Notes under the pieces: model-generated | Databases searched by the model: none | What the model was told of the DNA's origin: nothing | Seen by the model: the letters and a program-made list of their open reading frames with translations, nothing else | Origin: Desulfurella acetivorans A63 | GTDB taxonomy: Bacteria > Campylobacterota_A > Desulfurellia > Desulfurellales > Desulfurellaceae | Direction: 5' to 3' | DNA: 64,000 nucleotides | Assembly: GCA_000517565.1 (NCBI GenBank) | Contig: CP007051.1 | Coordinates: forward strand, 643,039-707,038 | Part shown: one piece after another, positions 11,925-63,633 of the stretch | Layout: each line of letters begins with the position of its first letter | How positions within the stretch are numbered: position 1 is the stretch's first letter | Made by a program: the position numbers and the translations under genes

Positions 11925-11953
11925 TTGACAATTTTGTATCTATTTTTTATACT
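11925..11953 (+). promoter_or_regulatory. strong sigma70-type promoter of rlpA, predicted to give a leaderless mRNA
   Basis: TTGACA (11925-11930), exactly 17 bp, TATACT (11948-11953). The predicted transcription start is about 11960, one base before the ATG at 11961. No Shine-Dalgarno is present (CTTGAAAAC precedes the ATG). The position of the promoter also excludes the longer reading frame that would start at 11913. Confidence 0.75.
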
Positions 11954-11960
11954 TGAAAAC

Positions 11961-12461
11961 ATGAAAAGGTTTTGGTTAGTTTTAACGGTGTTATTTTTTG
12001 TTAGTTTTTCACGGGCATTTGCGGGTGAAGCTACAGTTGATGACATTTTAAAATCACTTTCAAACGAAAACAATGCGTGTCAGATTCAAAAAGGTTATGC
12101 CTCATGGTATGGTTTAAGTGATTCTTTAATGCAAACAGCAAATGGCAATGTTTACAACAGTGATGAAATTTTTGCAGCTAGCAAAACTCTACCTTTTGGT
12201 AGTAAGGTGTTGGTAAAAAATCTTTACAATGGTAAAGAGCTGTTTGTAAAAATTGTAGACAGAGGACCATATGTCAAGGGGCGCATACTGGATTTATCAA
12301 GAGGAGCAGCTAAAGAGCTTGGTATGATTAATGCGGGAGTAGTACCAATTAAAATTTATACTTTAGGGTGCGAATACGCATTAAATAAACTTAAAGATAT
12401 GAATTTTTATTCAGATTCAACAGTAACTTCAACCGCTTCTAATTCAACATCACAAAACTAA
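11961..12461 (+). CDS. rlpA: RlpA-like septal ring lytic transglycosylase / rare lipoprotein A family
   Basis: The protein of about 166 residues has an N-terminal signal sequence (MKRFWLVLTVLFFVSFSRAF, cleaved near AFA-GEA). Its double-psi beta-barrel domain reads YASWYGLSDSLMQTANG, FAASKTLPFGSKVLVKN and IVDRGPYVKGRILDLSRGAAKELG. RlpA proteins cleave naked glycan strands at the septum. There is no lipobox and no C-terminal SPOR domain, so this is a minimal exported form. The start at 11961 is chosen because the promoter ends 7 bp before it. A terminator hairpin follows the stop. Confidence 0.87.
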   Translation: MKRFWLVLTVLFFVSFSRAFAGEATVDDILKSLSNENNACQIQKGYASWYGLSDSLMQTANGNVYNSDEIFAASKTLPFGSKVLVKNLYNGKELFVKIVDRGPYVKGRILDLSRGAAKELGMINAGVVPIKIYTLGCEYALNKLKDMNFYSDSTVTSTASNSTSQN

Positions 12462-19343: not shown

Positions 19344-19371
19344 TTGAATTAGAAAATAATTCTGTTAATAT
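19344..19371 (+). promoter_or_regulatory. possible leaderless promoter of addA
   Basis: TTGAAT (19344-19349), 16 bp, TAATAT (19366-19371). The predicted start is near 19378, which coincides with an in-frame GTG. No Shine-Dalgarno is present. Confidence 0.5.
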
Positions 19372-22300
19372 ATGTATGTGAATAAACAAAATACAAACGA
19401 AGTATTAAATACACTTTTTGCTTCTGATTTTCCACACATACAGATTGTACAGGCAAGTGCAGGCTCTGGCAAAACATATGTTTTAACTCAAAGAATAGTC
19501 CAATTTTTACTTTCAAAAAATATATTAAATAACAAAATAAACAACATAATTGCCATAACCTTTACAAAAAATGCTACAAATGATATAAAAAATAAAGTTT
19601 TAGAGTGGTTAAAGAAAATATACCTTGATTTGCTTACAAAAGAAGAAAAACAACATTTAATTAACCTTATAGGTATAACAGATTCTGATTTGATAAATCA
19701 AGTTTCAAAAACTATTGAAGAAATTTTAGACAATTACAGCGATCTTGTTTTAACTATAGATAGTTTTATTACAAAAATTATACGTTCAAGTGCAATTGAG
19801 CTTGGCTTGAATCCTGATTTTGATGTTGATGTGGATTCTAAAAGCATAATAGATTATGCTTTTGATGAGTTTTTAGAAAGCACGCCTTCATCAGATTTGA
19901 TTGATTTTTTGAATTTTCTAAATGAAAGCTCTAAATTTGTTGTGGATTTTCAGGTTGTTGAATCGATAAAAACAAGACTGAGTAATTTGCTTGACAAAGA
20001 GTCTGCCCATAAAAGTTTCTTTTATTTTGATAAAAATATGCTTGATAGGCTTAAAACAGAGCTAAACCCTATATTTGATATTATGCTTGACTTACTGGAA
20101 AAGCACTCAATGGAAAAAACTTCAGGAAATGTTGGTTTAAAGAAGATTGAAAATTTAAAACTTGCATTAAAAGAAAAAAATATACTAAGCGTAGTGGATA
20201 ATAAGATAAACTTTCCTTATAAAGATGAAACGGCAAAGAAAATATGGAAAGAATGCCTTGAAAAAATAAATTCAAAATTATATGAAATTGCAAAAATAAA
20301 ACGTTTACCTTATTTGAAATTATTTGTAGACTTTAAAAACCACATTGTAAAAACCTACAATATATTGGGCAAGACATTTTTGCCTGATGTAAATAAACGC
20401 ATTATTAACTTGCTAGAAGAAGGTTATGTGCCCACAATTTACTTCACACTTGGAAGCTATATATATCATTATTTAATAGATGAGTTTCAAGATACATCAA
20501 AAATTCAGTGGGAGATTTTAAAACCTTTGATAGAAGAATCCCTTTCAAAAGGCGGTTCTTTATTCATAGTAGGAGATTTAAAACAATCAATTTATGGTTT
20601 TAGAAAAGCAGATTTTGAAATAATGAAGAATTTAATAGATGAGCCGGTAAGGTTTTTCCCGCAAAGTAAATGCATAAATAAAACGCTTAATTATAATTAC
20701 AGGTCTTTTGGTCATATTGTGGATTACTCTAAAAAAGTTTTTCAAGAATACCTGAAAGATACAATAAGTAAAACTAACGATCCAACGCATTATCTGGATT
20801 TTGAATCAATTTCGCTTGATAAACATTTGTTTAAGGGTTATGTAAAAACTCAGTTGTTTGGTTTTGCAAGCGATGAAGGCATTAAGTGCATAAAAGATAG
20901 TTTACTTAAAACTATCGATGATTTGTTAAATAGCGGTTTTAGACCTGATCAGATTGCAATTTTAGCCCTTACAAACAAAGAAATAAATACTATAAGTGGC
21001 TGGCTTTTAGAAAAAAACTATACAGTGCTATCTCAGAGTGCGAGTGACATAAGGCAAAGAAAAATAATAAACGAAATTATAAGTCTTTTAAAATTCTTTA
21101 ACAATCCGCTTGATAATTTAAGTTTTGCTACTTTTTTAATGGGTGATATATTCAATTTTATTATAGATAGATCAATAATTTTGGATTTTTTAGCTGAAAA
21201 TATAGCTCCAAAGTTTTTATACATAAAATTTAAAGATTCATTTGCTGAAAAATGGAATATGTATTTTAAGGAAATTTTTAACAATGTGGGATATTTACCT
21301 GTTTATGAGTTAGTATTAAACATAATAAAAACATTTAAAATAGATGAAAATTTTCAGCAAGAAAGTCATTACTTAAGTTTTTTGCTTGATAAGATATTGG
21401 AATTTGAATCCGTTGGTATAAGTGATTTAGGTTCTTTTATTGACTATTTTGAAAATAACAAACAGGGTGAATCTAACATATTTTCCTGTGAATTTTCACA
21501 ATCACAAGAAGGTATACAGTTACTTACGATACATAAATCCAAGGGTTTGCAATTTGATGTTGTAATAAATGTACTTAATGCGGATAAAAATTTTGCTTTA
21601 AATCCAAACAAAAGATCAAATGGGCAAAACGAATTTATTTTTGAAACAAAAGACGCGCTTGATTTATTATACATTACAAAAAATCTTACTTCTAATGAAA
21701 ATCTTTGCCAGATTTACAACAAGGATCAATTAAAAAAAAATATAGAAGACTTTAACGTTTTATACGTTGCACTAACAAGAGCAAAAATGCAGATGTATAA
21801 TTTTATATATTACAAAGAAAACGAAACAAAGTGTTCAATAAAAGAAGAAGAGATTGGCACAAAGCTTTCAATTAATAAAGAACAAAGTTTTTATACAGGC
21901 AAAAACCTTGTAAAATTTAAAACAAATTTTAATAAACTTTTATCACAATCTCCAACCTGGACTATAAAACGTATAAAAGATTCAAAAAAAGGTGAAATTT
22001 ATCACAAGATACTTGCACATTTAAAGTATGAGGAAGATTTTTTAAAACTTGATGATTATATTTTAAAATACTCAAAATTTATAGATTTTGATATAAATAA
22101 ACTAAAAAAAGAAATTCTGGACATTCTAAATATAGATGAGCTCAAAATTTTATTTAGCAAAGAAAATAGAGTATTTACAGAAAAAACCTTTATAGACAAA
22201 AAAGGCAATATTTTTAGAATGGATAGAGTGGTAATTGATAAGAATAATAATATATATGTTTTAGATTACAAAACAGGAAAGACGACCAAACAAGAGATTG

Positions 22301-44600: not shown

Positions 44601-44628
44601 TTGAAAAAAAATTATATGTTTTTATATT
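44601..44628 (+). promoter_or_regulatory. promoter of the moaD-like gene, predicted leaderless
   Basis: TTGAAA (44601-44606), 16 bp, TATATT (44623-44628), then AAAAAT and the ATG at 44635, exactly where transcription should begin. There is no Shine-Dalgarno. Confidence 0.7.
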
Positions 44629-44634
44629 AAAAAT

Positions 44635-44886
44635 ATGTTAGTAAGATTTTATTCAACTTTACGTGAAAAAAAAGGAAAAAGCGTAGAAATTAATACAGAG
44701 TATATAAATATAAAATCTCTGATAGATTTACTTGGGATATCAAATTATATATTAGATAATAACAATCTTTTGGCTGGTACCATGATTTTGGTTAATGGCA
44801 AAAATATATCTCACTTAAATGGTTTGGATACTATTGTTCAAAATAGTGATAGTATAGATTTTTTCCCACCTGCTGCAGGCGGATGA
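44635..44886 (+). CDS. MoaD/ThiS-family sulfur-carrier protein
   Basis: This 83-residue beta-grasp protein (MLVRFYSTLREKKGKSVEIN) ends IDFFPPAAGG, the Gly-Gly tail that is adenylated and thiocarboxylated. FFPPAAGG resembles MoaD more than ThiS. It would donate sulfur to molybdopterin or to another acceptor. Its stop overlaps the adenylyltransferase start by 4 bp, so the two form a pair. No other molybdopterin genes are visible here. Confidence 0.87.
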   Translation: MLVRFYSTLREKKGKSVEINTEYINIKSLIDLLGISNYILDNNNLLAGTMILVNGKNISHLNGLDTIVQNSDSIDFFPPAAGG

Positions 44887-45530: not shown

Positions 45531-46006
45531 ACGCTAAAATCAATTAAGCTTATATTTATAGTGTCTTTTGAATATTGTTCAATAGCCTTAAAGGCTTGCT
45601 TTTGAAATTTTAAGTTTTCGATTTTTCTCAATATTTCGTCTTTTTGGACAGGATTGTTTGTATATTTTTCTTGTTCTTTTAATTGATTAATCTGATTATT
45701 TATATTGGGTACTAATTGTTTATAATATTTGTTTTCATCTTTTTTGGGACAATAGACAATAACCTGGGATTTTCCGCTTGTTGCAGCTAAATACTCACCT
45801 TGTTTGCTAATATTTAATGATACGCTGCTTGATACAACATAACAGCCTTTTTGAATAGCTTGCTTTTTAAAACGACTGATATTATCGGCCTCATGGGTTG
45901 AGACTCTACCAATTGAAAATGCGGCGCTGGAGGGAGCACTCGAGCCCCACTCACCTGGATCAAGCTTATAATGAAGAATAGGATCTAAATTTGAAAAATT
46001 AATCAT
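45527..46006 (-). CDS. hypothetical protein, cytoplasmic, predicted coiled-coil C-terminal half
   Basis: I do not recognise this protein of about 159 residues (MINFSNLDPILHYKLDPGEW). The N-terminal half has a Gly/Ser-rich stretch (GSSAPSSAAFSIGRVS), then AIQKGCYVVSSSVS. The C-terminal half is charged and helical (INNQINQLKEQEKY..., ILRKIENLKFQKQAFKAIEQ), ending INISLIDFSV. There is no signal peptide. The start at ATG 46004-46006 is chosen because a promoter ends 6 bp before it. The gene overlaps the convergent adenylyltransferase gene by 4 bp. Confidence 0.6.
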   Translation of the reverse strand: MINFSNLDPILHYKLDPGEWGSSAPSSAAFSIGRVSTHEADNISRFKKQAIQKGCYVVSSSVSLNISKQGEYLAATSGKSQVIVYCPKKDENKYYKQLVPNINNQINQLKEQEKYTNNPVQKDEILRKIENLKFQKQAFKAIEQYSKDTINISLIDFSV

Positions 46007-46012
46007 ATTCAA

Positions 46013-46040
46013 AGTATAACTTTAAAATCTAGCTTTTCAA
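46013..46040 (-). promoter_or_regulatory. promoter of the 159-aa hypothetical gene, predicted leaderless
   Basis: On the minus strand TTGAAA (46035-46040), 16 bp, TATACT (46013-46018), then TTGAAT and the ATG at 46006. The promoter overlaps the end of ctpA, so the gene can be expressed separately. No Shine-Dalgarno. Confidence 0.7.
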
Positions 46041-50242: not shown

Positions 50243-52795
50243 TTATTTTGTAATAAAATTTTGCAGGTAAAAATTATCAAATTGCTTATTTAAAAGCATA
50301 ATTTTGTATTTTAAGCTATTAAATAAAAAATTAAGTTTTTCTTCGTTTTTTTCTAAAAATATTTTTTTTGCAGTTTTATGTATATCTATATGTAAATACT
50401 CAATACTTTTAAAAGATTTAATTCGTCCATAAAGCGGGTAGACCGAGTAATACCATTTGCCAAAATCGCATTTTTTATGGTCAAATTCAATAATTTTTGA
50501 TAAATCGTTTAGTTGTTTGTCTGAATCATTGTTTTGCAAAATGTTTCTTATTATTTTAAAATACTTATAAATAAAATACTTTACTTGAGCTATTTTTAAA
50601 TCCAGTATTTTTGAATTATTTTGCTGAAATTCTATGAATGTGCTATCTGGTTTGAAATTTTTTACAAAATTTATGAATTCATGGTATGGTATTGGTTTTG
50701 AAATAAAATAACCCTGAAGTAAGTCGCAGGGCAGGTAGTTAAAAAGAAAGAAAAGATACTCGTTTTCTATGCCTTCTGCGGTTGTTTCAAAATTTAATTC
50801 ATTTAGCATGCTAAGCATATGAGAGCTTATGATAGCAGATTCCTGATTATTTTGCAGATCCATAATATAATTTTGGTCTAGTTTTATGTTAGAAAAAGGG
50901 AATTTTTTTAAACTCAAGATAGAAGAGTATCCTGTTCCAAAATCATCCATTGAAAAGTTTATACCGAGGTTTCTTAGAGCCTGCATTTTTTGTATTGTTT
51001 TGTTTTCATCGCTTAGGGCTATAGATTCTGTAAGCTCTATTTTTATAAAGCCTGGGTCTGTTTTGTATTTATCGATAAGCACAATAAAGGTATCCAAAAA
51101 GTTATCTGTCAGAAATGTTCTGCCTGTTATATTTACAGATATTATTATTTTTAAGCCTTCTTTTATTATTTCATTTATACTTTCTAATGCTTTTTCTAAA
51201 ACATAAAAATCAAGTTTTTCAATAAGATCTGAGCTTTCTGCAAAAGGAATAAAATAAAATGGAGAAAGTAAACCTTTTTCTGGATGATTCCATCTGATTA
51301 AGGCTTCTGCATGAGTTATAGCTTTTGAGTGTGTATTGTATATTGGCTGGAAGTAAAGCTCAAACTCTTCAAATTCTATTCCATGTATTATTTCATTTGT
51401 TAGCATAAAGCCATTTATAAATTCTTCATATATAGAGTTATTAAAAAACACGCACTGATTTTTACCAAGTTGTTTTGCTTTCCTACATGAAGCATGAGCG
51501 TAGTTTACGAGTGTATTTATATTATCTGAATCTTTTGGATAAAGCACAATGCCAGCACTAACTTTTAAGAAAATTTCCTGACCATCAATTTTGAAACTTT
51601 TTTGCCTTATTTTTTCAATAGTGTTTCTTGTAAATTTTACGATATTTTGTTCTATAATAGAGCGCTTTAGAAAAATAAATTCATCTGATCCAAACCTGCT
51701 TACTATGTCTTTTGGATCAGCTAACTGTAATCGTAGAAAATCAGCAAATTCCTTTAGCAATTGATCGGTTTTTTCAATGCCAAATTTTGTATTTATTGTA
51801 GAAAAGTTGTCTAAATCAATGTAGACTATAGCAAACGATTCATTTTTTTCGATGATTCTTTGAGCTTGCTCAAAAAAGCCAACCTGGTTTATAAGCTTTG
51901 TTAAAGGATCGTGATATATGTTATAGCTAGCCTGCTCTTGTGCTTTTTTTAATTCTGTTAGATCTGTGAAAAAGCTAAAATAATACGATATATTTCCGTT
52001 TTCATCTTTAATTGTTTTTATAAAAATAATCTCTTCGTAGATCTCGCCATTTTTTCTTTTATTATAAATCTTACCTTCAAAATGACCATTATGGATTAAT
52101 TTGTGCCACATGTCTTCATAGAAATCTTTTGAATGATAGTTAGATTTAAGAATCGAAGGATTTTTGCCTTTTGCTTCTTCAAAACTATATCCTGTAATCT
52201 TACTGAAAGCTTTGTTTGTATAAATTATCTCATTTTTGCTGTTTGTTATTACCACACCCTGGTAACTGTTTTCAACTATGTCTTTTGAAAGGATTAAATC
52301 TTTTTCTTTTTTAGAAATAAGTATTGCTGCTTTAATTGCGTAGGAAAAGTTGATTAAAATTTCTGAAGTGCGTTTGTCAAAATAGTTTTTGTATTTTGAG
52401 TATAACAGTATAAATCCGCAATCAAAGTCATTTATTTGAAAAATAAACCCAAATATTGAATTAAAACCATAAGTTGTGGCAGCGTTTTTTAGATAAGACA
52501 GTCTTTGATCTTCTAAAACATCATTTGATACAAATGCATTATTTGAGTATTTTTTTAGTATGTTTACCTGGTAGTTTCTTAAGGTTTCATCTTTTGTGTA
52601 TTGAGTGGCTTTGCCTTTTGCTTTACTTAAAGTTAAGTGCTTATCGCTGAATATACCAATCCATGCAAGCTCTAAATCTAAATAATCAAAAACTAAATCA
52701 AGAAGAATATCAAAATTTAGCTTTTCAAAGTCTTTAATTAAAATAGAATAGGTTTTATAGATTATATCATCGAGGTTGTTTTTGGTTTGATTCAT
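50243..52795 (-). CDS. GAF/PAS-GGDEF-EAL protein with C-terminal CZB zinc-sensor domain
   Basis: The protein of about 850 residues has a GAF-like N-terminal region (30-165), a PAS domain (170-290; GVVITNSKNEIIYTNKAF), GGDEF (295-455; active-site text RFGSDEF), EAL (470-710; HAEALIRW, KIELTES, DDFGTGYSSI) and a C-terminal CZB-type domain (DHKKCDFGKWYYSVYP, then LHIDIH). It should both make and break cyclic-di-GMP, and GSDEF is a workable variant of GGDEF. CZB domains sense zinc or hypochlorous acid through the Cys. The start at ATG 52793-52795 is set by the promoter. Confidence 0.87.
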   Translation of the reverse strand: MNQTKNNLDDIIYKTYSILIKDFEKLNFDILLDLVFDYLDLELAWIGIFSDKHLTLSKAKGKATQYTKDETLRNYQVNILKKYSNNAFVSNDVLEDQRLSYLKNAATTYGFNSIFGFIFQINDFDCGFILLYSKYKNYFDKRTSEILINFSYAIKAAILISKKEKDLILSKDIVENSYQGVVITNSKNEIIYTNKAFSKITGYSFEEAKGKNPSILKSNYHSKDFYEDMWHKLIHNGHFEGKIYNKRKNGEIYEEIIFIKTIKDENGNISYYFSFFTDLTELKKAQEQASYNIYHDPLTKLINQVGFFEQAQRIIEKNESFAIVYIDLDNFSTINTKFGIEKTDQLLKEFADFLRLQLADPKDIVSRFGSDEFIFLKRSIIEQNIVKFTRNTIEKIRQKSFKIDGQEIFLKVSAGIVLYPKDSDNINTLVNYAHASCRKAKQLGKNQCVFFNNSIYEEFINGFMLTNEIIHGIEFEEFELYFQPIYNTHSKAITHAEALIRWNHPEKGLLSPFYFIPFAESSDLIEKLDFYVLEKALESINEIIKEGLKIIISVNITGRTFLTDNFLDTFIVLIDKYKTDPGFIKIELTESIALSDENKTIQKMQALRNLGINFSMDDFGTGYSSILSLKKFPFSNIKLDQNYIMDLQNNQESAIISSHMLSMLNELNFETTAEGIENEYLFFLFNYLPCDLLQGYFISKPIPYHEFINFVKNFKPDSTFIEFQQNNSKILDLKIAQVKYFIYKYFKIIRNILQNNDSDKQLNDLSKIIEFDHKKCDFGKWYYSVYPLYGRIKSFKSIEYLHIDIHKTAKKIFLEKNEEKLNFLFNSLKYKIMLLNKQFDNFYLQNFITK

Positions 52796-52802
52796 AAATA
52801 AC

Positions 52803-52830
52803 ATTATACAAAAACTAATTTTTAAATCAA
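52803..52830 (-). promoter_or_regulatory. promoter of the GGDEF-EAL-CZB gene, predicted leaderless
   Basis: Minus strand: TTGATT (52825-52830), 16 bp, TATAAT (52803-52808), then GTTATTT and the ATG at 52795. The upstream ATG lies inside the -10 box and cannot be the start of this transcript. Confidence 0.7.
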
Positions 52831-54896: not shown

Positions 54897-56053
54897 TTTT
54901 TTTCTCCAGCAAGAAGTATGGTTTTTTCAATGCCTTCTCTTAAGTTTTTTGCCATACTGATGTTGCTTTTTTTGTAAGCATTTAAAATATCAATTGCTTC
55001 TTTTTTGTTTGCGCCTTCAAGTCTAGCAACAATCGGCAAATTAAAGCTATAGGCATCGCAGAAATCTACCAAAGCTTGTGCAACTATATCGCATCTTACA
55101 ATGCCTCCAATAATATTGACAAATATAACTTTTACCCTTGTATCCTGGTGGATAATCTCTAACGCTTTAAAAATTGATTCTTTGGTAGCACTGCCTTTTA
55201 TATCCAAAAAATTTGCACATTTGCCACCGAAGTCTTCTATTGTATCCAAACAAGCCATTGCAAGCCCTGCCCCATTAACCACCATAGCAATATTTCCATC
55301 TAGCCTTACATAATTTAAGTTATTTTGGCTTGCTTGAAACTCAAGGGGCTCTTGTTGTAATATGTCTGTATATGATAGGATTTTTTCCTGTCTAAAAAGT
55401 GCGTTATCATCTATTACAATTTTTGCATCAAGTGCAAAAAAATCACTACCGGTATCAAGCAAAGGGTTTATTTCTAAAAGCTCTGCATCGATATCTTTGT
55501 AAAGCATAAAAAGTTTTGATATTAAAATTACAAAATTATTTGCTTTATCTTTTTCAAAATTAAAAGCGCATGCCGCTTTTTTTGCGTAAAATTTGGAAAA
55601 ACCCAGAAGTGGATCTATACAGACCGTATTGCTTTTGTTTACTTTGAAGGTTTCTTGAATATCTACTCCACCTTCTTTTGAAACAAGTATAGTATTGCAT
55701 TGATTGTTTCTATCCGCAAAAATGCTTACATATAGCTCTTGATTACCCAGTAGAGCTTCTTCAATATAGACAGCAGATACAATTTTTCCTTCTTTTGGCG
55801 TTTGTGGCGTTATTATGCGTTTGCCTAAGAATTTTTTACAGAAGCTAATAGCTTCTTGCTTATTATAAATTTTTTGAATGCCACCAGCTTTGTTTCTTGC
55901 TCCCGCGTGAATCTGCACTTTTGCAATGTAGGTTTTACCTGTTTCAAATGGTATGCTATCTATTTGTTTCGTATTTGTTACGACAAAACCTTTAGGTATA
56001 TTTACACCATATCTTACTAATAATTCTTTTGCTTGATATTCGTGTATATTCAT
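54893..56053 (-). CDS. sucC: succinate--CoA ligase (ADP-forming) beta subunit
   Basis: The 386-residue ATP-grasp protein starts MNIHEYQAKELLVRYGVNIP, with KVQIHAGARNKAGGI, LEINPLL and GIVRCDIVAQALVDF. It binds nucleotide and forms the dimer interface with SucD. It lies 46 bp after rimO with its own likely promoter: TTGAAA (56086-56091), 17 bp, TAATGT (56063-56068), about 9 bp before the ATG and without a Shine-Dalgarno, hence a leader of only about 3 bases. Confidence 0.95.
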   Translation of the reverse strand: MNIHEYQAKELLVRYGVNIPKGFVVTNTKQIDSIPFETGKTYIAKVQIHAGARNKAGGIQKIYNKQEAISFCKKFLGKRIITPQTPKEGKIVSAVYIEEALLGNQELYVSIFADRNNQCNTILVSKEGGVDIQETFKVNKSNTVCIDPLLGFSKFYAKKAACAFNFEKDKANNFVILISKLFMLYKDIDAELLEINPLLDTGSDFFALDAKIVIDDNALFRQEKILSYTDILQQEPLEFQASQNNLNYVRLDGNIAMVVNGAGLAMACLDTIEDFGGKCANFLDIKGSATKESIFKALEIIHQDTRVKVIFVNIIGGIVRCDIVAQALVDFCDAYSFNLPIVARLEGANKKEAIDILNAYKKSNISMAKNLREGIEKTILLAGEKN

Positions 56054-56099
56054 TTGTAAACTACATTAGCATACTTTAAACTTTTTTTCAAATACAAGT

Positions 56100-62039: not shown

Positions 62040-63176
62040 TTACTCTATTTTATCGTTTTCTTTTTTGTAGAAATATTTTAATTTTTTTTCTAAATACTCT
62101 TGTGTTACAAAACTGCCTTTAAAATTATGCGGATATAAGTAATCTTTCGAATTTGTTTTTAAATGTTTTGGGACATTAAGTAACAAACCATTTTTAACAT
62201 CAGCTTGTGCTTTATTTATAGCTATATATGCTGAATTAGATTTTTTGGCTAAAGCCAGATAAATTGTGCAAAATGCTAAATTGATTCTTGCTTCTGGCAT
62301 TCCAATATTTTGAACGATAAAAAGCGTGCTTGCAGCAATATTAACAGCATCTTTATCAGCAAGGCCGATATCTTCGCTTGATAATATGCACAGCCTTCTT
62401 GCTATAAATTCTGGATCTTCTCCACCTTCTAACATTCTTGCAAGGTAATATATAGCTGCATCTGGATCTGAGCCCCTTATGCTTTTAATAAATGCCGAAA
62501 TAAAATCATAGTGATCCTGTAGATTATCATATGACAGATCTATATTAAAGAGATTTTCTACATCTTTTTTTGTAATGCGTTTCAAATTTAGAGCAAGGAG
62601 TATATTCATTAATTTCCTTGCATCGTGATTTGACTGCTTGATTATTATGAAACGCGCATCATTATCTATCTTAATGCCATGCAAGCAAACTCTATCTAAA
62701 AGTATTGATAGATCTTTTTCACTTAAACCTTTAAATTCATAAACAAACAATCTTGAACGCAATGCTTTGTTTAACCTAAAATATGGATTGTGAAATGATG
62801 TCCCAATAAGTATAACATTGTTTTCAAGGAAAGATAGCAAATAATCTTGTTGTTTTTGATCTAGTCTATGTATTTCATCTATTAGCAAAAGTGTTGGTTT
62901 ATCTGTTAAAGATGATTTTATATCTTTAAGAGTTGAAATTGAAGCATTTAAGTATATATAGTCTAAATTTTTTTTCTTTGCTATAAGTTTTGCGTATGTG
63001 GTTTTTCCACTGCCTGGTGGCCCAAACAATATTAAAGATGGAAAGTATGTATTATTATGGTAAAAATTATAAAGAGGTTTTCCTTTAGAAAAAAGGTGAT
63101 CTTGACCAACTAACTGATCAAAAGTTTCAATTTCAAAAGCACTTTTGACGATGTTTTCTATTGTTTCGTCTTCCAT
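62040..63176 (-). CDS. rarA: replication-associated recombination protein A (MgsA/RarA AAA+ ATPase)
   Basis: The 378-residue AAA+ protein has DQLVGQDHLFSKGKPLYNFY, Walker A LFGPPGSGKTTYAKLI, Walker B TLLLIDEIHRLDQKQQDYLL, and the RarA C-terminal text IRGSDPDAAIYYLARMLEGG and EFIARRLCILSSEDIG. It acts at stalled forks with single-strand-binding protein. It is shorter than E. coli RarA (447). Its promoter and start suggest a leaderless mRNA. It is the first gene of a long minus-strand run. Confidence 0.93.
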   Translation of the reverse strand: MEDETIENIVKSAFEIETFDQLVGQDHLFSKGKPLYNFYHNNTYFPSLILFGPPGSGKTTYAKLIAKKKNLDYIYLNASISTLKDIKSSLTDKPTLLLIDEIHRLDQKQQDYLLSFLENNVILIGTSFHNPYFRLNKALRSRLFVYEFKGLSEKDLSILLDRVCLHGIKIDNDARFIIIKQSNHDARKLMNILLALNLKRITKKDVENLFNIDLSYDNLQDHYDFISAFIKSIRGSDPDAAIYYLARMLEGGEDPEFIARRLCILSSEDIGLADKDAVNIAASTLFIVQNIGMPEARINLAFCTIYLALAKKSNSAYIAINKAQADVKNGLLLNVPKHLKTNSKDYLYPHNFKGSFVTQEYLEKKLKYFYKKENDKIE

Positions 63177-63183
63177 TGTTTAA

Positions 63184-63211
63184 ATTTTACCAATTTTAAC
63201 AGAAAAATCAA
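63184..63211 (-). promoter_or_regulatory. promoter of rarA, predicted leaderless
   Basis: Minus strand TTGATT (63206-63211), 16 bp, TAAAAT (63184-63189), then TTAAACA and the ATG at 63176. No Shine-Dalgarno. Confidence 0.65.
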
Positions 63212-63218
63212 ATTTTTA

Positions 63219-63246
63219 TTGAAAATTTATAAAAACATTATATAAT
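63219..63246 (+). promoter_or_regulatory. promoter of the Rrf2-family gene, predicted leaderless
   Basis: TTGAAA (63219-63224), 16 bp, TATAAT (63241-63246), then CCAAAT and the ATG at 63253. Transcription should begin at the A of the ATG. The -35 box is 7 bp from the -35 of the divergent rarA promoter. Confidence 0.75.
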
Positions 63247-63252
63247 CCAAAT

Positions 63253-63633
63253 ATGTTTTTGCCAACAAATGTAAGGTACAGTTTAAGATTTTTAATAGAA
63301 CTCAAAAAAAGCGATAAACCTTTGAGCCTTAAAAATATTTCTCAAACAACAAAAATTAGTGAAAATTATCTAAAGCAGCTTGCTGCCAAATTGGAAAAAC
63401 ATGATATAGTAAAAGGCAAAAAAGGCCATCATGGTGGCTATAAGATTTTAAAAACTGATGTATCGCTCAAGGATTTAATAGATATTTTTACTGAGGGTAT
63501 TAAATTAGCTCCTTGTGTACAGGATGGCTTTGTTTGCACACTTATCGAAAATTGCCCCTCTACAAAAATGTGGCAAGAAACAAACAAAGCCATAGAAAAG
63601 CTTTTTGAAGATATCAAATTAGAAAATTTTTAG
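63253..63633 (+). CDS. Rrf2-family transcriptional regulator with three Fe-S type cysteines
   Basis: The 126-residue protein has a winged helix (VRYSLRFLIELKKSDKPLSL, ISENYLKQLAAKLEKHDIVKGKKGHHGGYKI), with recognition helix about 35-47. Three Cys (88, 95, 101) lie in APCVQDGFVCTLIENCPS, the Fe-S ligand region of IscR, NsrR and RsrR types. It likely senses iron-sulfur status, nitric oxide or redox. Its target genes are unknown. It may control its own promoter and the back-to-back rarA promoter. Confidence 0.9.
   Translation: MFLPTNVRYSLRFLIELKKSDKPLSLKNISQTTKISENYLKQLAAKLEKHDIVKGKKGHHGGYKILKTDVSLKDLIDIFTEGIKLAPCVQDGFVCTLIENCPSTKMWQETNKAIEKLFEDIKLENF

Follow-up and report, generated by a model that had tools for sequence, protein, structure and literature searches.

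The placement of a -10 box directly before a start codon is already known from other bacteria. Of 471 primary starts mapped in Campylobacter jejuni by differential RNA-seq, 12 coincide with the start codon and follow a TAnAaT box, and 19 of 471 5' UTRs were shorter than 10 nt (PMC3847290). The promoters of Desulfurella acetivorans A63 described here resemble those of C. jejuni and Helicobacter pylori in that a sigma-70 TAnAaT box directly precedes the ATG, a Shine-Dalgarno (SD) sequence is missing, and a minority of genes is involved, but they differ from the C. jejuni cases, all of which are ATG, in using both ATG and GTG (PMC3847290). Leaderless status was little conserved between species in that study, whereas here the arrangement is kept among congeners and, in the case of folE2, extends through the order and into part of the class; the C. 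jejuni starts were mapped by RNA data, while those of Desulfurella are predicted from DNA sequence. The '-10 region adjacent to ORF' of Deinococcus-Thermus likewise lies about 6-7 bp before the ORF without a ribosome binding site, with GTG starts occurring, and the ORF-adjacent motif of Deinococcus functions as a promoter; it is found at nearly a third of genes as a TANNNT motif, however, compared with about 9% of first genes and an evident TTGA -35 box here (PMC12340547). A survey of 1025 genomes (Zheng et al., 2011) predicted TA-led genes in about a fifth of bacterial genomes, including 8 of 33 delta- and 2 of 26 epsilon-proteobacterial genomes, and these genes share with the present ones a TA-like signal about 10 bp upstream, the leaderless reading, and a negative correlation with operon-distal genes (PMC3160421). 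A literature search for Desulfurella and leaderless genes, and for a delta-proteobacterial dRNA-seq study, returned nothing usable.

The D. acetivorans A63 genome has 1.82 Mb in two contigs at 31-32% GC, and the window, meaning the whole stretch of 64,000 nucleotides that was analysed, covers positions 643039-707038 of contig C1. Two congeners (G001 and G002, 1.9-2.0 Mb) and genomes of the sister family (1.7 Mb) served for comparison, and a scan of a genome collection for rarA relatives brought up no useful one; a 16S rRNA gene was sought in the assembly and was not readable. Very probably, sigma-70 promoters whose -10 box ends 6-7 bp before the start codon give rise to leaderless mRNAs in this organism, mostly of first genes. 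RNA polymerase usually starts about 7 bp past the -10 box, and a transcript from such an ordinary housekeeping promoter would begin on the A or G of the ATG or GTG, with its start predicted to lie no more than about 3 nt from the start codon. Leaderless mRNAs need no SD sequence, and the expected route of initiation would be start-codon-dependent, using either the 70S ribosome or the 30S subunit with IF2 and initiator tRNA. The design would serve first genes above all in short divergent intergenic regions, where two back-to-back core promoters would leave scant room for a leader. The leaderless reading, in which the transcript 5' end is a prediction, is supported by an excess of promoters at 6-7 bp, by their conservation in relatives, and by protein-type conservation from the ATG onwards.

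Six promoters that the initial annotation had singled out as leaderless were all confirmed at their positions in the window, each with a TTGAxx -35 box, a spacer of 16-17 bp, 6-7 bp between the -10 box and the ATG, and no SD sequence. The rlpA promoter (11925-11963, + strand) consists of TTGACA (11925-11930), a 17-bp spacer, and TATACT (11948-11953), followed after 7 bp by the ATG at 11961, which forms the opening of a signal peptide (MKRFWLVLTVLFF). This design is kept in both congeners, at 7 bp in G002 and 6 bp in G001, and outside the genus the N-termini of the rlpA orthologs have diverged too far to be compared. The promoter of a moaD/ThiS-like gene (44601-44637, + strand) has TTGAAA (44601-44606), 16 bp, TATATT (44623-44628), and 6 bp to the ATG at 44635; the ThiS family model (PF02597) matches the protein from residue 3, and G001 has TTGAAA and TATATT with 7 bp before the ATG. 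On the - strand, the GGDEF-EAL gene promoter (52793-52830) reads TTGATT (52830-52825), 16 bp, TATAAT (52808-52803), and 7 bp to the ATG at 52795, with TTGACT, TATAAT, and an ATG at 9 bp in G001. The rarA promoter (63174-63211, - strand) comprises TTGATT (63211-63206), 16 bp, TAAAAT (63189-63184), and 7 bp to the ATG at 63176, and the 7 bp are retained in G001 (TAGAAT) and G002 (TATAAT); in the second family of the order rarA is mixed, several members looking leaderless by eye and others not. Its divergent neighbour rrf2 is preceded by TTGAAA (63219-63224), 16 bp, TATAAT (63241-63246), and 6 bp to the ATG at 63253 (promoter 63219-63255, + strand), with identical geometry across the three species, and the Rrf2 family model matches from residue 1.

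The sixth promoter, that of a hypothetical gene starting at 46006 (46004-46040, - strand), has TTGAAA (46040-46035), 16 bp, TATACT (46018-46013), and 6 bp to the ATG. An S41 protease gene on the same strand (stop near 46029) lies 22 bp upstream of the gene start, and the -35 box sits within the 3' end of this protease gene. The 46006 gene is thus not a free-standing first gene, and represents a second context in which the promoter overlaps the 3' end of the preceding gene. In G001 the boxes are TTGAAA and TATATT, again at 6 bp, and the start codon is GTG.

Of three further genes, addA and ubiE had been described as partial fits. The addA promoter (19344-19380, + strand) is a full fit, with TTGAAT (19344-19349), 16 bp, TAATAT (19366-19371), and 6 bp to the GTG at 19378, and G001 has TTGAAT, TAATAT, and 6 bp to an ATG at the homologous codon. 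For sucC (56051-56091, - strand), to which only about 3 bases had been ascribed, TTGAAA (56091-56086) and a 17-bp spacer lead to the -10-like TAATGT (56068-56063), which lies 9 bp before the ATG at 56053; the promoter is better called near-leaderless, with a predicted leader of about 2-3 nt, and G001 has TAACAT at 9 bp, also without an SD sequence. The fit of ubiE is weak, with about 8 bp and a poor -10 box.

Whether such arrangements exceed what composition alone would yield was assessed in a sample of 864 kb (the window and 40 stretches of 20 kb), or 47% of the genome, in which genes and starts were called by my own coding-potential method, which is blind to upstream signals. A first gene was defined as divergent with a gap of at least 50 bp or on the same strand with a gap of at least 100 bp, an operon-internal gene as on the same strand with a gap of at most 25 bp, and the remainder as intermediate. 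Genes with an SD-like 4-mer at -20 to -4 formed the SD class, and a strict promoter required TTGA, a spacer of 16-18 bp, and TATAAT with at most one mismatch, with 300 dinucleotide-preserving shuffles as the control. The sharp peak at 6-7 bp that had been anticipated for genes lacking an SD sequence was found: among 104 SD-less first genes, strict promoters occurred four times at 6 bp and six times at 7 bp, and none at 0-5 or 8-9 bp, so that ten matches stood against a shuffled mean of 0.06 and a maximum of 2 in 300. As the window supplied four of these ten matches from about 8% of the genes, the test without it matters, and here six strict matches remained against 0.05 expected (P about 2e-11). 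The window is also denser in strict leaderless promoters (4 of 13 SD-less first genes) than the rest of the sample (6 of 91), which may be due to chance or to how the window was selected.

The 102 SD-led first genes had no strict match at 6-7 bp, a split that is partly built in where an SD-like 4-mer and a -10 box contend for the same bases, and their strict sites were spread over 18-37 bp, as expected of short leaders. Circularity was avoided by training a position weight matrix on the SD-led first genes only; run on the SD-less ones, it placed 14 best sites at 6-7 bp compared with 0.3 in shuffled sequence. A pattern search of the whole genome with N6-7 before RTG gave 35 matches, and 18 of the 30 loci examined lay at an ORF-start-like RTG (an ORF of at least 60 aa with little open frame upstream, a crude criterion), while the same pattern with N12-13 gave 16 matches, two of them ORF-start-like. 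Several of the 18 loci fall in stretches outside the sample.

At 31% GC, strings resembling TATAAT and TTGA are common, and some would lie 6-7 bp before an ATG by accident. In line with this, scanning for the bare -10 hexamer showed a weak excess, with 8 and 10 matches at 6-7 bp against about 5 expected, and it was dropped as a scan criterion because it is too weak in an AT-rich genome. Chance is nevertheless refuted by the shuffled control and by conservation, and has next to no probability as an explanation: both boxes with their spacing occur ten times against 0.06, they are seen outside the window and conserved between species, and a member of the order with 39% GC shows five strict promoters at 5-7 bp and two at 9 bp in 40 SD-less first genes, at a shuffled rate of 0.002 per position. 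Stretches of two unrelated control genomes, G034 and G060, showed no strict peak; loose matches at 6-7 bp in their SD-less first genes numbered three and four, and these genomes may hold a few leaderless genes.

The association with first genes that the initial annotation had proposed held up, with strict promoters at 10 of 206 first genes and 1 of 451 internal genes (Fisher P=6e-5), and the 46006 gene is the one exception among those it listed. At a loose threshold, the counts were 18 of 206 first genes (shuffle 1.2), 2 of 124 intermediate genes (0.6), and 3 of 451 internal genes (0.7). The design is real but belongs to a minority, about 9% of first genes; there are about 20 genes of this kind in the 864-kb sample and, by simple scaling, perhaps 40 genome-wide. 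Their start codons are ATG in 16 cases and GTG in 4, with no TTG. SD-led initiation is the main mode, and the companion claim that genes inside operons do have SD sites holds as a tendency: an SD-like 4-mer precedes 52% of the internal genes, compared with 14% in mononucleotide shuffles, and 45% of the first genes, compared with 8%. Among the leaderless genes that could be given a name are two Rrf2-type regulators, a Fur-family regulator, rarA, addA, rlmD, and miaA, ispH, and folE2 (the last three names assigned by eye from sequence), as well as an MscS-type channel, a cation/proton antiporter, an RssA-like patatin, and a multidrug-resistance-type transporter; by inspection, roles in regulation, RNA modification, DNA repair, and transport stand out.

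Both congeners keep the promoters of rarA, rrf2, and rlpA, and G001 additionally keeps those of moaD, addA, the GGDEF-EAL gene, and the 46006 gene. The distance from the -10 box to the start is mostly 6-8 bp in the congeners, while the start codon (ATG or GTG), the spacer, and the discriminator vary. Real promoters of this kind could also belong to genes whose translation begins further downstream, behind a normal short leader with an SD sequence, and the start codons were indeed called from DNA alone. Yet ATG and GTG swap at the same place between species (addA, ispH, folE2, and the 46006 gene), and codons 2-20 of eight leaderless genes differ between D. acetivorans and G001 at 20, 11, and 50 sites for codon positions 1, 2, and 3, respectively, a pattern which indicates that coding constraint starts at the proposed start codon. 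With this protein-type conservation from the first codon, the signal peptide opened by the rlpA ATG, and the Rrf2 and ThiS models matching from residues 1-3, a downstream start is very unlikely, and initiation at the proposed codon is the preferred reading.

Beyond the genus, individual genes behave differently. Members of the second family of the order carry a -10-like box 6-10 bp ahead of the folE2 start, commonly at 9 bp (the 8-10 bp cases were judged by eye), and three genomes from a third family of the class have TATTTT 7 bp before the ATG. The 9-bp placement of folE2 in the sister family suggests leaders of 1-4 nt instead of strict leaderlessness there. The distance is accordingly not always 6-7 bp (9 bp for sucC and for the GGDEF-EAL gene of G001, 8-10 bp for many folE2 relatives), and at 8-10 bp some transcripts would carry 1-4 nt. 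The ispH gene has the leaderless arrangement in the genus, where it stands first in its unit; in the second family such a promoter is missing and the sequence upstream of ispH resembles the end of a coding region. It thus looks operon-internal in the sister family, and leaderless status seems to follow gene order. For miaA, the leaderless arrangement is seen in the genus; most members of the other family do not visibly have it, and several upstream regions there look coding.

Within divergent pairs, spacers of at most 95 bp had a leaderless gene in 9 of 12 cases compared with 6 of 47 wider pairs (P=6e-5), an association that was found after looking. Two pairs are leaderless on both sides, namely rarA/rrf2 with a 76-bp spacer (63176-63253) and a SAM hydrolase-like gene/ispH with a 90-bp spacer (L026:3236-3327). 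Both spacers hold little besides two back-to-back core promoters, and in the case of rarA/rrf2 the two -35 boxes are 7 bp apart and the core promoters fill the 76 bp. A second promoter further upstream might make the main, leadered mRNA and leave the close promoter a minor role, and in the loose scan some genes do also score at a position 35-67 bp upstream. In the divergent spacers of 76-93 bp, however, such a promoter would fall in the promoter or coding region of the partner gene, and among SD-less genes the strict scan turns up few other sites, which makes this alternative very unlikely relative to transcription from the close promoter. The saving of space in divergent spacers is proposed as the cause of leaderless placement. 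A joint reading, which I offer tentatively as possible rather than probable, is that leaderless starts are largely an architectural result of squeezing divergent pairs into 76-93 bp; genes would acquire and lose leaderless status as gene order changes, as suggested by ispH, yet retain it at fixed loci such as folE2 throughout a class, and the paired promoters would be mutually exclusive on the DNA, coupling the expression of both genes.

The general picture of bacterial leaderless genes is unchanged by these findings, which add well-supported leaderless promoters from a lineage whose start sites were not found to have been mapped. The start codons listed here may be misplaced by gene callers that rely on SD sequences. 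Loci at which the arrangement is conserved or switched, such as folE2 and ispH, lend themselves to a natural test of why a gene is leaderless, and the link to short divergent spacers would supply a simple, testable cause.
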